DNA of 37,396 nt from Candidatus Methanomethylophilaceae archaeon (GTDB lineage: Archaea > Thermoplasmatota > Thermoplasmata > Methanomassiliicoccales > Methanomethylophilaceae), in contig JAFVZR010000153.1 of NCBI GenBank assembly GCA_017508065.1, forward strand, positions 1 through 37,396. The letters are read 5' to 3'. The notes below the pieces were generated by a model. It ran no database searches. It was not told the origin of the DNA and saw only the letters and a program-made list of their open reading frames with translations. Shown piece by piece: positions 20,147-26,591 of the stretch; position 1 is the stretch's first letter; each line of letters starts with the position of its first letter. The translations under genes and the position numbers were made by a program.

Positions 20147-20839
20147 TCACTCCTCCTCTGCTGGGAGTTTGCTTTCCAAATATACTTTGACCTTCTCGGT
20201 AAGGTCACGTGCCTGTGCCTTCTCCTCGATCATCTTGATTGCATCGGCAACGACAGCAGCCCTGTCCTCCTCGCCATCAATCCAGATTCTTCCGTTCTGA
20301 CCGACGAAGATGCGGCATCCGGACGCCGCTTTGAGCAACTGGATCATGGATCCGCTCTTTCCGATCACCCTGGATACCTTAGAGTGTGCAATCTCTACGA
20401 GGAGTCCGCCCTCTACCTTCCTGAGTCCGGAGTCGTTCATTGTGACCTGGATCTTCTTGCTCTCGTCGACGGAGAGGATCTTCAGGAAGACCACGTTTCC
20501 GATGTTCAGGAACCTGGAGGTGTCTCCGAACTCCACCTTCCACGGGACCTCACTGACGTGCAGTGGTGCGGGGTAGGGTGCGTTGATGTCAATCATCCAG
20601 TTCGATGGTCCGATGTCGTTTACGACTCCGATCACAAAATCTCCTGCGCTGGGCATGTATTGGCCCCACAGCGGGATGACGCTGACGCCGATGGGGGAGA
20701 CATTTTTTATCCCCATGACTGCAGCGTAGACCTTGCCCTCTCTGCTGTACGCGTACTCTCCAGCCTTTGCACCGGATTCGTCGATGACATCGCCGGGGAG
20801 GACGAGCTCGCGTTTGGGTTTGGCGTTTCTTCTTTCCAT
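20147..20839 (-). CDS. rrp4: Exosome RNA-binding cap subunit Rrp4
   Basis: A 230-residue protein with an N-terminal domain ([12 protein letters not shown]), an S1 domain (about 60-130) and a KH domain with [15 protein letters not shown] (about 155-169), the order that defines Rrp4. It caps the exosome ring and guides RNA in. The gene begins 18 nt after the SBDS stop and its stop is 2 nt before the rrp41 start. Confidence 0.96.
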
Positions 20840-20857: not shown

Positions 20858-21556
20858 TTATGCGCGCAATTCCTTGAAGGTGGCGCTACCTTTCGTCTTG
20901 TTGCCAATCTTGAGTTTCAGCTCATCGATGAGTCCCGCAGGTATCTCGATTATGCCTATCCACGATCCGTCGGACTGCCATTCCTCTTTCTCTACGAGTC
21001 CGAAGTGGATGAGGTCGTCGTAGCATTTTCCATAATCGTCGCCCTTCATCTTGATCGCCACTTTCGTCTTCTCGAACTTGATCGGGAGGAGTGGCCTGAG
21101 AAGTTTCATCGCTTCCTCCACCTGTCTGTCCACGGATTTGAATGGATCAGCGTGGAATTTGGCTTCCTCGAGTGCCATTTCGATCCTCATTGGCGGATGA
21201 GGCAACTTAGTCTGCGGGTTGATCGCGTTCGCGGCGATGTATGTGATGACCTGCTGTTTCTTTGCCTGGAGCATCTCCTTGCGTTGTTCCGCAGTGATCT
21301 GTACTTCTCCCTTGGCAATGATCCTCTCCGCAATCTCTTTGACATCCGATGTTCCAAACGCCTCACGTATCTTGTCCTCCGCGGGTCTCGTACCCTTTCT
21401 GGCGTTGTTGAACACATCCTCGACGGCGAGGTATTCGAGGAGGTCGATCTCCTTCCCTGCCTTGAGGAGGTTCATTGCGGATGGATCGAGAAGGATCTCG
21501 AAGGTCTCGCCATGGGTTTCGAGGCGAGCCACGATAGCATCATCAAGATTGACCAT
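20858..21556 (-). CDS. sdo1: Ribosome maturation protein Sdo1/SBDS
   Basis: A 232-residue SBDS-family protein with the N-terminal FYSH-like domain ([38 protein letters not shown]), the three-helix middle domain, and a ferredoxin-like C-terminal domain. In eukaryotes and archaea SBDS helps release aIF6/eIF6 from the large subunit. It lies between psmA and rrp4, its classic superoperon position, 6 nt after psmA. Confidence 0.96.
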
Positions 21557-21562
21557 GTTATC

Positions 21563-22297
21563 TCATTCAGATTTCTCGGGAGTCTCATCGAGTTTCTTGA
21601 CGAATTCACCGATCTCGACTTCGTTCAGTCTTCTGAATGGTTTGTTGGGTTCAACAACACTGCATTCGACGGATGCGGGATCGAGTTTCTCCTCGATGGC
21701 GACGGACAGCGCCCTGAGTCCAAGGAGCATAGCCTCATCGTAGGTGAGGTCGTCCCTGTATTCCTTCTCGAAGATGTCCATGACAACGGGGCGTCCAGAA
21801 CCGATGGAGCCTGCCTTGTATGCGATGAGTGCTCCGGAGGGGTCAGTCTCGAAGAGGTGGCAACCGAGGTCATCGACTCCAGCCATGAGGAGTGCGGTTC
21901 CGAAGGGGCGTCCTCCTCCGTAGAGGGTGTAGTTCTGCTTGAGGTCACAGATCTTCTTGACCAATGCCTCAACCGTGATGTTCTCGTTGTATGTGACCTT
22001 GTGGACCTGTGCTGCCTTTCTTGCCTCATCTACGAGGACTCTTGCGTCAGCGACGAGTCCGGATGTTGCACATCCGATGAATTTGTCAATGTTGTAGATC
22101 TTTTCGATGGATTTGGGCTCGATGAGCCTGCTCGATACGCGTTTATCGACGATGAGGACCACACCATCCTTGTACTTCAGACCAATGGTGGTGGTACCTT
22201 TCTTGACGGCTTCGCGGGCATACTCGACCTGGAAAAGCCTTCCGTCAGGGGAGAAAACGGTAATTCCCCTGTCATAGTTCATCTGTCCTGGTTGCAT
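21563..22297 (-). CDS. psmA: Proteasome alpha subunit
   Basis: A 244-residue 20S alpha subunit. The N-terminal YDRGITVFSPDGRLFQVEYAREAV is the alpha signature (gate region plus helix H0), with KGTTTIGLKYKDGVVLIVDKR and the GGGRPFGTALL block following. It forms the outer rings that gate substrate entry for PAN/Cdc48. I start at ATG 22297, which has an AGGAGAG ribosome site 6 nt upstream; the GTG at 22330 adds an atypical extension. Confidence 0.97.
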   Translation of the reverse strand: MQPGQMNYDRGITVFSPDGRLFQVEYAREAVKKGTTTIGLKYKDGVVLIVDKRVSSRLIEPKSIEKIYNIDKFIGCATSGLVADARVLVDEARKAAQVHKVTYNENITVEALVKKICDLKQNYTLYGGGRPFGTALLMAGVDDLGCHLFETDPSGALIAYKAGSIGSGRPVVMDIFEKEYRDDLTYDEAMLLGLRALSVAIEEKLDPASVECSVVEPNKPFRRLNEVEIGEFVKKLDETPEKSE

Positions 22298-22379
22298 ATT
22301 TCGCTCTCCTATATTAGGAGCGGTTATCACCAGCGACTATATGTACTTTCATACGCGTGTTAAGAATGGATACGTTGTT

Positions 22380-22697
22380 TCAACGTCTCTTCGGTGGAGG
22401 TCTGAGGCGCATCAGTTCGGGATATCTGTTCCTGAGGGTGATGACAGTACCAGATGTGCACAGGGATGTAGATTTCGGGTCCACGGCCTTCATTATCGCG
22501 ATGGCATCTTCGCGCTCCTTGGGTCCACAACGGATGATGCACCATCCTTCGGAACATTGGACGACACGTGGTTCGAAAGGTAGGTCGGACGTCCTGAATC
22601 TGGCTATCAATGTCTCTTTGGTGAGTGACCCATCGACTGTGAACGCGATGTACCTTCTCCTTCCGCGCTTGGATTTGACGACCATCGTACACCACAT
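22380..22697 (-). CDS. rnp2: RNase P protein component Pop5 (Rnp2)
   Basis: A 105-residue Pop5/Rpp14-type protein, a subunit of archaeal RNase P that processes tRNA 5' ends. The segment KRGRRRYIAFTVDGSLTKETL near the N-terminus and VVQCSEGWCIIRCGPKEREDAIAIM in the middle match the family, and its place next to psmA in the superoperon agrees. The ATG at 22697 overlaps the TGA of the RING-like gene (TGATG), showing coupling; the ATG at 22685 with a GGTG site is an alternative start. The basic tail RLRPPPKRR could contact RNA. Confidence 0.82.
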   Translation of the reverse strand: MWCTMVVKSKRGRRRYIAFTVDGSLTKETLIARFRTSDLPFEPRVVQCSEGWCIIRCGPKEREDAIAIMKAVDPKSTSLCTSGTVITLRNRYPELMRLRPPPKRR

Positions 22698-23215
22698 CAC
22701 TCTTTCGGAAATAATGATTTGTCCGCCAAAGCGATACGTCTTTCGAAAGTCCTTCCACAATTGGGGCACCATTCCGATTCTTCGCGGAGTTCTTCTCCGC
22801 ACGGACAACGGAACGTCTTGTCCTTGAACGGTATCACTGTTCCGCATTCACAGATGTTGCCTTCGACAGCCCTTCCGCAACGGAAGCACGTCAGCATCCT
22901 GGATTCGCGTTCCTTGATCGGGAAGTTGTCGAAGGCGGTTCCACAATATGGGCATGAGCCAGTCGGTTCAGCGCACGTTCTATGGAACGTCTTTCCGCAG
23001 GTGCAGTCGCATACCGTCTCGCCCTTCACGTCATCGAAGCATATGTCACAACGGGTGTCGGCGTGATAGTCCTCCACATGGAATGCCGACCTGTCATCCA
23101 GGAGCCTGTGTTTCATCTCTTTGGAATGTTTGTCACGGCGAATTGTACCGATAGTACCGATGGCTGTTACGGCGAGGATGCAACCGCCCAGCATCAGAAT
23201 CGGTACGTCAATCAT
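22697..23215 (-). CDS. Membrane-anchored RING/PHD-like multi-zinc protein
   Basis: A 172-residue protein. A single hydrophobic helix (about 6-25) is followed by basic residues, suggesting an anchor with the rest in the cytoplasm. A C4HC3 cross-brace-like array then follows: C56-x2-C59-x9-C69-x-C71-x6-H78-x2-C81-x6-C88-x2-C91, similar in order to RING-CH/PHD fingers. Two more zinc sites come next: C110/C113 with C122/C124, and C137/C139 with C150/C153. It is the first gene of the exosome/proteasome superoperon and is coupled to rnp2 through TGATG. Whether it binds ubiquitin-like carriers, RNA or the proteasome is unknown. A plain zinc-ribbon protein is the alternative. Confidence 0.75.
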   Translation of the reverse strand: MIDVPILMLGGCILAVTAIGTIGTIRRDKHSKEMKHRLLDDRSAFHVEDYHADTRCDICFDDVKGETVCDCTCGKTFHRTCAEPTGSCPYCGTAFDNFPIKERESRMLTCFRCGRAVEGNICECGTVIPFKDKTFRCPCGEELREESEWCPNCGRTFERRIALADKSLFPKE

Positions 23216-23236: not shown

Positions 23237-23246
23237 GTTTAAATAC
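23237..23246 (-). promoter_or_regulatory. TATA box for the exosome/proteasome superoperon
   Basis: GTATTTAAAC on the minus strand about 26 nt before ATG 23215, predicting a leaderless first gene. It is the clearest promoter upstream of the twelve-gene run. Confidence 0.55.
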
Positions 23247-23558: not shown

Positions 23559-26500
23559 ATGACTAAATCAGCGTTGGTTATCGGTGGAGGAATCGCAGGT
23601 ATCCAGGCTTCGTTGGATCTTGCCGACAGGGACATCCACGTCTACTTGGTGGAGAAAGACCCCACCATCGGTGGAAAGATGTGCCGTCTCGACAAGACTT
23701 TCCCTACGAATGACTGTTCTGCATGTATCCTTTCGCCCAAGATGGCAGATTGTGCAGGCCACCCCAATGTCACCGTACTGTCCTATTCTGAGGTCGTTAA
23801 GGTTGACGGAGAGGCCGGAGATTTCAAGGTCACTGTCAAGAAGAAGCCCAGGTACGTCAACATGAGCTCCTGTACCGGATGCGGTGACTGTGTTAAAGCT
23901 TGTGTTCTCGGTGGAGAGAAGGCAAAGATCCCCGACGAGTTCGAGTACGGACTTGTTAACAGGGGAGCTATTTACATCCCTCACGCTCAGGCAGTCCCCA
24001 GGGTTGCACTGATCGATGCAGAGCACTGCCTTATGATTTCCAAGGGCAAGTGCGGTAAGAAGTGTGAGAAGGCCTGTATGAAGGGTGCAATCAACTTCGA
24101 CGACAAGGAAACCGAGGAAGTTATCGAGGTCGGATCCATCATCGCAGCAGCTGGATTCCAGCTCTGGGACGCAGGAATCGCAACCGAGTACGGATACGGA
24201 AGGTTCGACAACGTCGTCACCTCTATGGAATACGAGAGGATGATGTGCGCATCCGGTCCTGACCACGGTCACATCAAGTGCCCCTCCAACAAAGAGGACC
24301 CCAAGAAGATCGCATACATCCAGTGCTGCGGTTCCAGGTCCGAGAAGAAGGGCTGGAAGAAGTACTGTTCCTCTGTTTGCTGTACCTATGCAGCAAAGCA
24401 GGCAATCATTACCAAGGAGCACTCCGACGTTCAGGAAGACATCTTCTTCATGGACATCAGGTCCTACGGTAAGGAGTTCGAGGCCTACATCAAGAGGGCC
24501 GAGAGCCAGTACAAGATCAACATGCACAGGGGTGCACGTGTCTCCCACATCGAGGAGGACCCTGTCACCAAGCAGCTCACCGTCAACTACACCGACAAGG
24601 ACGGTAACGCAGTCGGAGCAGTCTACGACCTCGTCGTTCTCTCCATCGGACTTAACCCCCCTGCAGACGCAGAGAACCTCTCCAAGGTCCTCGGTGTCAA
24701 CCTGAACGAGTACGGATTCTGTGAGACCTCCGTCTTCAAGCCCCTCGAGACCTCCAGGCCCGGTATCCTTGTCTCCGGAGCATTCTCCGCACCCAAGGAC
24801 ATCCCGACCACCGTTGCAGAGTCCTCTGGAGCAGCAGCAAAGGCAGGATCCTACATCGTCGATGAGAACTTCGTGCCCTGCGCACCCAAGGAGTACCCTG
24901 CAGAGAAGGATGTCGTCGGCAAGCCCGTCCGCATCGGAGTATGGGTCTGCGAGTGCGGTATCAACATCGGTGCAACCGTCAACGTTCCCGAGGTCGCAAA
25001 GTACGCAGAGACACTCCCCAACGTGGTTTACTCCACTTCCACCATGTACGCATGTGCACAGGACTGTCTCCAGGCAATCTCCGAGGCAATCTCTACCTAC
25101 GATCTGACCCGTGTCGTCGTCGCATCCTGTACTCCCAGGACCCACGAGCCCCTGTTCAGGGTCGCTTGCCGCGAGGGTGGACTCAACCCCTACCTCTTCA
25201 ACATGGCAAACATCCGTGACCAGTGCTCCTGGATTCACATGCACGAGCCCGAGGCAGCAACCAAGAAGGCAAAGGACCTCGTCAGGATGGCTATCGCAAA
25301 GGCAGCACTCCTCGAGCCTCTCCAGGGATCCAAGATCCCCGTCACCAGCGCAGCAGCAGTCATCGGTGGAGGTATCACCGGTATGACCACTGCACTCGAC
25401 ATCGCAGCACAGAACATTCCTGTCCACCTTGTCGAGAAGGAGGGACAGCTCGGAGGCCAGGCACTCAAGTTCAGGCACAAGGAGGATGGAGTTGACACTC
25501 AGGAGTTCATCAAGGAGCTCATTGACAAGGTCAACAACAACAAGCTCATCACCGTTCACCTGAACGCAGAGATCAAGGACCTCCCCGGATTCGTCGGAAA
25601 CTTCAAGCTCCAGCTCATGGACGGAACCGACGAGGCAGTCGGAGCAGTCATCCTTGCAATCGGAGCACCTGCTTACCAGCCCACTGAGTACAACTACGGC
25701 ACCGATGCAAAGGTCAAGACCAACATCGAGGTCGAGAACGAGATCGCAGACGGAAAGTTCAACGCACAGGACGTTGCATTCATCCAGTGTGTCGGATCCA
25801 GGAACGACAAGGTCTCCTACTGCAGCCGTGTCTGCTGTACCTCTTCACTCAGGAACGCAATCGCAATCAAGCTGGCAAACCCCACTGCTAACGTCACCAT
25901 CTTCCACAAGGACATCAGGTCCTACGGATTCCGCGAGGAGATGTACAGAAAGGCATGTGAGGTCGGAGTCAGGTTCCTCAGGTACGACGAGGCCGCACCC
26001 CTGCCCGCATACGATGGTAGCACCGTTACCGCATTCGACGAAACCCTTGGCGCAGACGTCTCCGTCCCCGTCGACTGTGTCGTTCTTGCAAACGGTATCG
26101 CACCCGCACGCGAGGAGAAGGAAGTCATCGCAAAGATGCTCAAGATCCCAATCTCCAAGGACGGATTCTACTTCGAGGCTCACCAGAAGCTCAGGCCCGT
26201 CGACTTCGCAACCGAGGGTGTCTACGTCGCAGGACTCGCACACTGGCCCAAGCACATGGACGAGTGTATCGCACAGGGATCCGGAGCAGCTTCCAGGGCA
26301 CTTACCGTCATCTCCAAGGAGTTCCTTACTTCCGAGGGTATCGTTGCATCAGTCAACGAAGACTACTGTGACGGATGCGGTGTCTGTGAGGGATGCTGTG
26401 ACTACAAGGCAATCACCATCGTCGAGACCGATAACGGTCTGAAGTCCAACGTCAACGCTGGACTTTGTAAGGGATGCGGATGCTGTGTAGCATCTTGTCC

Positions 26501-26591
26501 GTCCGGAGCGATGGAACAGAAGGGATTCAAGAACAGCCAGATCATCGCAGAAGTCGATGCATGTCTTGACTTCCCTGTTGGAGGAGAGTGA
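23559..26591 (+). CDS. hdrA: Heterodisulfide reductase subunit A, double-length fused form
   Basis: A 1010-residue iron-sulfur flavoprotein containing two HdrA-like halves. Half 1 (1 to about 450) has an FAD loop GGGIAG (9-14), a ferredoxin site CTGCGDC-VKAC (105-115), Cys-rich GKCGKKCEKAC (163-173) and CCGSR...CSSVCC. Half 2 begins with the standard HdrA N-terminal domain (GVWVCECGINIG, 460-471), then a second FAD loop GGGITG (603-608), CVGSRN...CSRVCC, and two C-terminal [4Fe-4S] sites (CDGCGVCEGCC and CKGCGCCVASC). HdrA bears the bifurcating flavin that splits electrons from hydrogenase to ferredoxin and, through HdrBC, to CoM-S-S-CoB. No hdrB or hdrC is adjacent. mvhD follows after 4 nt. 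Codon choice is narrow, suggesting high expression. Confidence 0.95.
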   Translation: MTKSALVIGGGIAGIQASLDLADRDIHVYLVEKDPTIGGKMCRLDKTFPTNDCSACILSPKMADCAGHPNVTVLSYSEVVKVDGEAGDFKVTVKKKPRYVNMSSCTGCGDCVKACVLGGEKAKIPDEFEYGLVNRGAIYIPHAQAVPRVALIDAEHCLMISKGKCGKKCEKACMKGAINFDDKETEEVIEVGSIIAAAGFQLWDAGIATEYGYGRFDNVVTSMEYERMMCASGPDHGHIKCPSNKEDPKKIAYIQCCGSRSEKKGWKKYCSSVCCTYAAKQAIITKEHSDVQEDIFFMDIRSYGKEFEAYIKRAESQYKINMHRGARVSHIEEDPVTKQLTVNYTDKDGNAVGAVYDLVVLSIGLNPPADAENLSKVLGVNLNEYGFCETSVFKPLETSRPGILVSGAFSAPKDIPTTVAESSGAAAKAGSYIVDENFVPCAPKEYPAEKDVVGKPVRIGVWVCECGINIGATVNVPEVAKYAETLPNVVYSTSTMYACAQDCLQAISEAISTYDLTRVVVASCTPRTHEPLFRVACREGGLNPYLFNMANIRDQCSWIHMHEPEAATKKAKDLVRMAIAKAALLEPLQGSKIPVTSAAAVIGGGITGMTTALDIAAQNIPVHLVEKEGQLGGQALKFRHKEDGVDTQEFIKELIDKVNNNKLITVHLNAEIKDLPGFVGNFKLQLMDGTDEAVGAVILAIGAPAYQPTEYNYGTDAKVKTNIEVENEIADGKFNAQDVAFIQCVGSRNDKVSYCSRVCCTSSLRNAIAIKLANPTANVTIFHKDIRSYGFREEMYRKACEVGVRFLRYDEAAPLPAYDGSTVTAFDETLGADVSVPVDCVVLANGIAPAREEKEVIAKMLKIPISKDGFYFEAHQKLRPVDFATEGVYVAGLAHWPKHMDECIAQGSGAASRALTVISKEFLTSEGIVASVNEDYCDGCGVCEGCCDYKAITIVETDNGLKSNVNAGLCKGCGCCVASCPSGAMEQKGFKNSQIIAEVDACLDFPVGGE

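Follow-up and report, generated by a model that had tools for sequence, protein, structure and literature searches.

A membrane-anchored RING-like protein heading a proteasome-exosome operon in Methanomethylophilaceae is a candidate E3 of a co-inherited ubiquitin-like conjugation system

Among described archaeal systems, the closest is that of Caldiarchaeum subterraneum, where an E1/E2/RING cascade has been reconstituted (Hennell James 2017, PMC5654768) and where an Rpn11-like protease is also part of the system (Fuchs 2018, PMC6043591). Prokaryotic JAMM genes occur in operons with homologues of Ub, E1, and E2, and RING E3-like proteins have been named only for Caldiarchaeum and the Asgard archaea (Fuchs 2018, PMC6043591); RING genes have been noted in one marine group II euryarchaeote (Grau-Bove et al.). 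Our literature search, which covered main texts, found no paper linking the Methanomassiliicoccales to a ubiquitin system and no description of a link between a RING protein and the proteasome; the distribution of the operons may therefore be partly published. Here we analyzed a 37,396-nucleotide stretch of DNA (the window) from a gut methanogen, a Candidatus Methanomethylophilaceae archaeon; the stretch encodes a small membrane-anchored protein with a RING-like domain. Sequence comparison and a modeled structure suggest, with a probability that we put at roughly 0.6, that this protein is a RING-type E3 or an E3-like scaffold of a compact ubiquitin-like conjugation system.

The gene lies in a unit with the order RING gene, rnp2, psmA, SBDS, rrp4, rrp41, and rrp42 (Table 1). 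An earlier reading of this DNA from sequence only had proposed a gene for a membrane-anchored zinc protein, leading the unit from its own promoter and overlapping rnp2, and these points held. The 172-aa open reading frame (translation MIDVPILM...FPKE) is the first before the divergent hdrA. An in-frame rnp2 ATG overlaps its TGA stop (22699-22697), and the conserved MVVKS start of rnp2 follows 11 nt downstream. Besides the TTTAAA at -28, the sequences upstream of 27 RING-gene homologues share an AT-rich stretch from -31 to -23, a pattern consistent with a TATA box, a near-leaderless transcript, and the RING gene as the lead gene.

Table 1. Positions in the window of the RING gene, its encoded domains, and its neighbors
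Feature	Position	Strand	Basis or remark
Membrane-anchored RING and double zinc-ribbon gene, 172 aa	22697..23215	-	ORF and translation, homologues
Single transmembrane helix, residues 4-22	23150..23206	-	hydropathy; AlphaFold helix 3-40
RING domain, C56 C59 C71 C73 H78 C81 C88 C91	22943..23050	-	invariant columns; Foldseek RING E3 matches
Zinc ribbon 1, C110 C113 C122 C124	22844..22888	-	invariant columns
Zinc ribbon 2, C137 C139 C150 C153	22757..22807	-	invariant columns
rnp2 (Pop5 of RNase P)	22380..22696	-	start overlaps RING stop or lies 11 nt past it
psmA, 20S proteasome alpha subunit	21563..22330	-	
SBDS homologue	20858..21556	-	
Exosome rrp4	20147..20839	-	
hdrA-like gene, divergent, upstream border of unit	23559..26591	+	
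TATA-like TTTAAA at -28 of RING gene (putative)	23238..23243	-	upstream comparison of homologues

The single hydrophobic helix (Kyte-Doolittle 2.19) is followed by RRDKHSK, and the positive-inside rule accordingly predicts a cytosolic C terminus. By hydropathy, an N-terminal membrane helix was present in 28/28 homologues from the family and in 11/23 more distant ones, and the wider RING-protein family can thus do without an anchor. All sixteen zinc ligands, those of the RING and of the two further sites that the sequence-only reading had recognized, were invariant in an alignment of 28 homologues, and since these homologues are only 28-48% identical, the array is beyond chance. The C4HC3 pattern of that reading was thus real, but one of its ligands was misassigned: C69 is particular to the window sequence and is not conserved in the homologues, and the ligand is C73. 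Two homologues from family f3 (L068 and L077) have no C73 (CGTGK and CGSGR), and the second zinc site there may be altered.

The window protein has the zinc ligand order C-x2-C ... C-x-C/H ... H/C-x2-C ... C-x2-C. Its best Pfam match was zf-RING_2 (E = 3e-4), and no cut-off of a curated RING family was passed (zf-RING_2, 21.3 versus 27.3 bits; Prok-RING_1, 7.1 versus 29.1 bits). We modeled both the whole protein and the RING by itself with AlphaFold2 from 15 sequences, and the mean pLDDT was 80.8 for the former and 79.5 for the latter (about 85-89 over the RING core). The best PDB matches of the full-length model in Foldseek were RING E3 domains, and the 50 best matches of the RING-only model were RING/U-box E3 domains (probability 0.75-1.00, best E = 0.0097), among them TRIM21, TRIM25, TRIM69, RNF165, APC11, and one U-box, several crystallized with E2. 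None of the PDB matches of the RING-only model fell below E = 0.001, as is expected for a domain of 59 residues, and the fold call therefore rests on the consistency of the matches. In PHD fingers, which are C4HC3 domains too, a conserved Trp precedes the last C-x2-C by two residues and the C6-C7 loop is long; the window protein has a six-residue C6-C7 loop and no such Trp, and no PHD domain was among the 50 best fold matches. A plain zinc ribbon does not describe the first domain either, since it matches RING and only the two C-terminal sites are ribbons. The predicted structure, compared with known folds as had been proposed for this protein, thus supports a RING-type fold for the first zinc domain.

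We also looked for residues that function in RING E3s. The first zinc loop carries a hydrophobic residue (I58; mostly I or L in the homologues, with A in one family member), the equivalent in the Caldiarchaeum protein srfp being I30 (PMC5654768). There was no Trp before the seventh ligand, in the loop C81-AEPTGS-C88 or in the homologues, and no Lys/Arg linchpin after the eighth (C91-G92), a position at which K/R is not conserved in the homologues; in the Caldiarchaeum E3, the linchpin and the E2-contact Trp are both needed (PMC5654768). The rarity of such domains, as the sequence-only reading had it, finds no support in these archaea, because many Thermoplasmata proteins carry a RING-like domain, including proteins from genomes in which no E2 was detected (G113 and G112). 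The same RING-like domain also occurs as the cytosolic tail of Ig-fold surface proteins or fused to TPR repeats (L098, L100, L104, and L106).

The genome from which the window comes encodes, unlinked to the RING gene, a complete and tight E1-Ubl-E2-JAMM operon (contig C41, L136:4467-6479), in which the Ubl stop overlaps the E2 start and E2 and JAMM overlap likewise. The E1 matched ThiF at 167 bits, the E2, the only protein in this genome over the UQ_con cut-off, matched at 40.5-40.7 bits (cut-off, 27), and the JAMM protein matched JAB at 49.3 bits (cut-off, 22.5); no E2 was found in any of 14 control genomes. The HPN motif and the catalytic cysteine were kept in 18/18 aligned members of the E2 family, whose profile matched eukaryotic E2s at 4e-15 and in whose loop 7 WSF/WDF takes the place of WSP. 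The JAMM motif (E..HSH..S..D) was intact, and the nearest PDB sequences were Rpn11 and CSN5. In 14 Ubls, the sequence PDPEGG was invariant, followed in the window genome by nine residues; a profile of these Ubls found ubiquitin among PDB sequences, and the single Ubl proteins, that of the window genome included, scored under the Pfam ubiquitin cut-off. The full set of E1, diglycine Ubl, HPN/Cys E2, and JAMM was thus present in the window genome and its relatives. Elsewhere, the arrangement varied: in family f29 (L155:3811-4878), a zinc-ribbon protein (356 aa) encoded upstream of the E2 has a Ubl fused at its C terminus, and family f20 (L150) has a distinct E2 that is more like those of eukaryotes (84 bits), its gene directly followed by one for a JAMM protein and preceded, at a distance of about 3 kb, by a ThiF-like gene.

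A profile search, with spurious ribbon-only matches set aside and three weak RING matches (G041, G064, and G076) left out of the count, found RING-gene homologues in 54/102 family genomes; the named relatives are uncultured Methanomassiliicoccales/Methanomethylophilaceae. In every family locus that was checked with enough flank, the gene lies between hdrA and rnp2(-psmA), and in RING-less family genomes, where the contig extends far enough, hdrA faces rnp2-psmA with no RING gene between. Homologues from elsewhere in the order are longer (about 230-310 aa) and have four ribbons, and in the one such locus examined in detail (L061) an ftsZ paralogue separates the RING gene from rnp2. The gene and its position are thus conserved across the family and the order, and, given the RING-like fold matches as well, the data show neither plain zinc ribbons throughout nor a gene or position confined to this genome. 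In other Thermoplasmata families, the order is RING gene, ftsZ, rnp2, and psmA, or else the RING gene is convergent with ftsZ. An ftsZ paralogue recurs beside the RING gene outside the window family (L061, L126, L128, and L131), and most Thermoplasmata examined have several FtsZ paralogues, with almost none in the window family; the loss of the canonical paralogues in this family brought the RING gene to adjoin rnp2.

Next, we asked how the RING gene and the E2 were distributed across genomes. Among the 102 family genomes, 52 carried both, 44 neither, 2 the RING gene only (G045, 68% complete, and G099), and 4 the E2 only (G018, G020, G090, and G095). Because psmA was also missing in 4/4 of the E2-only genomes, their proteasome locus is simply missing from the assembly; among the 88 family genomes with psmA, 50 had both genes, 36 neither, 2 the RING gene only, and 0 the E2 only. 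We also sampled 120 genomes of the class, assigning RING status by full-length profile score and ORF length and inferring negatives from genome numbering; an E2 was present in 40/43 RING-bearing genomes versus 17/77 others. Fisher P values for RING/E2 co-occurrence (1e-21 and 1e-14) overstate it because the genomes are related. On a locus tree, with the E2 labels of G045 and G099 set negative, the RING label needed 4 changes and independent pairs agreed in a mean of 3.9 of 4 cases (sign test, P = 0.125, not significant alone). Further joint absences were seen in family f3 (G243, G306, and G354), and some E2-bearing genomes (f12, f20, f23, and f29) had no short RING protein. Since the RING gene is kept or lost together with E1-Ubl-E2-JAMM, it probably encodes the missing E3 that would link tagging to the proteasome, and this co-inherited operon lends strong, if indirect, support to the suggestion of the sequence-only reading that the protein could bring modifiers to the proteasome.

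Family f11, which has no short RING protein, provided a second link between a RING and an E2. There, 6/7 genomes have a gene for a protein of about 1460 aa with a C-terminal RING-like domain right beside a Ubl-E2 fusion gene and divergent from it (L196-L202), the available sequence of the seventh ending near the E2 gene. In one of these fusions, the Ubl part passed the Pfam ubiquitin cut-off. The catalytic cysteine was lost or shifted in most f11 E2s, and the adjacency thus supports association of a RING with the E2 fold and not catalysis.

This last case bears on whether the window protein is a ligase at all. A membrane adaptor without ligase activity, which concentrates E2, modifier, or proteasome while the E2 conjugates directly, would show the same RING/E2 co-inheritance; the lack of the catalytic helpers (linchpin and Trp) and the four tandem ribbons of most relatives outside the family would suit it, and a RING beside an E2-fold protein that has no cysteine makes binding without catalysis plausible. 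The predicted domain nevertheless matches catalytic RINGs, and noncanonical RINGs can still be ligases. RING and E2 may each have changed at the surface where they meet, the E2 having WSF/WDF in loop 7, or the RING protein may be a noncatalytic adaptor; these departures hold our estimate of ligase activity at about 0.6, and we consider the adaptor role unlikely but a genuine contender. Counting further against an E3 role, the RING gene stands outside the E1-Ubl-E2-JAMM operon in the window genome, and since nearly all archaea have the psmA operon, a gene next to it need not act on the proteasome.

The position before rnp2 is itself conserved, and many relatives have an ftsZ paralogue between the RING gene and rnp2 or convergent with the former, as would be expected if the protein served the co-transcribed RNase P/exosome/SBDS/ribosome genes or, ancestrally, FtsZ, by holding RNA processing or division at the membrane. 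Yet the RING gene vanishes where the E2 vanishes while rnp2, psmA, SBDS, and rrp4 all stay, which speaks against the tethering of RNA-processing machinery that had also been suggested from the sequence. The RING gene likewise survives in the family after the canonical FtsZ paralogues are gone, and we set an FtsZ tether aside for the window protein; SepF was not found in the window genome, and a role as FtsZ anchor is accordingly possible for the relatives. Taken together, a service to RNA processing or division seems to us improbable. Shared ancestry and genome reduction could also account for the co-occurrence, with the domain as one of many Prok-RING_1-like Thermoplasmata modules that have unrelated roles: independent losses are few, and RING-like domains exist in E2-less lineages, one of them passing the Prok-RING_1 cut-off. 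Against this stand the near-perfect pairing within one family, the additional joint absences in f3, and the gene adjacency in f11, and we think coincidental inheritance very improbable.

Returning to the RING protein as an E3 or E3-like component, we infer E2 binding, ligase activity, a class of substrate, and delivery to the proteasome in a scheme of the following kind. The JAMM protease would trim the modifier to its diglycine, the E1 would activate it, and the E2 would carry it; the RING protein, on the cytosolic side of the membrane, would bind the E2 and promote Ubl transfer while its zinc ribbons hold a substrate or a partner machine. Tagged proteins, perhaps those near the membrane, would then pass to the PsmA proteasome, a product of the transcript that also carries the RING gene. 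If this is true, a RING inherited with a Ub-type operon and beside psmA supplies an E3 placed at the membrane and physically couples ubiquitin-like tagging with the proteasome in archaea other than the Asgard archaea and Aigarchaeota, and whether archaeal tagging feeds the proteasome becomes directly testable with five small proteins. A bolder picture, which we offer tentatively and hold somewhat less probable than its contrary, is that the Methanomassiliicoccales and related Thermoplasmata have a ubiquitin-proteasome pathway (E1-Ubl-E2-Rpn11-like JAMM), lost or kept as a unit. Its E3 would be a RING that is anchored in the membrane, has no linchpin, and shares a transcript with the 20S proteasome, and the whole would be the euryarchaeal equivalent of quality control for membrane proteins.

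Compared with known RING families, the window protein resembles Prok-RING_1 (PF14446) in its binuclear, treble-clef-like C4HC3 arrangement with H-x2-C and a short following loop, but its score is far below the cut-off, which one Thermoplasmata relative (L107) passes. With RING-v/MARCH-type and TRIM-type E3s, some of which are membrane anchored, it may share the cross-brace RING fold, as the prediction has it, and it differs from them in falling below curated cut-offs, in its shorter C6-C7 loop, and in having no linchpin. The conjugation operon has the same gene set as the RING-less Ub-E1-E2-JAMM operons of the JAMM-3 group (Fuchs 2018), with a JAMM closest to Rpn11/CSN5 by sequence search, a likeness drawn by gene set and not by JAMM-3 membership, and unlike those operons, it is accompanied by an unlinked RING candidate. 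With the Caldiarchaeum E1/E2/srfp operon, it shares a compact set of E1, Ub, E2, and Rpn11-like JAMM, a small RING as candidate E3, and a modifier with extra residues after the diglycine. In contrast to Caldiarchaeum, the window genome has a more divergent modifier (below the Pfam ubiquitin cut-off) and a RING that, unlike srfp, is membrane anchored, is C4HC3, carries two zinc ribbons, and has no equivalents of W58/R69, its gene standing outside the conjugation operon and heading that of rnp2 and psmA.
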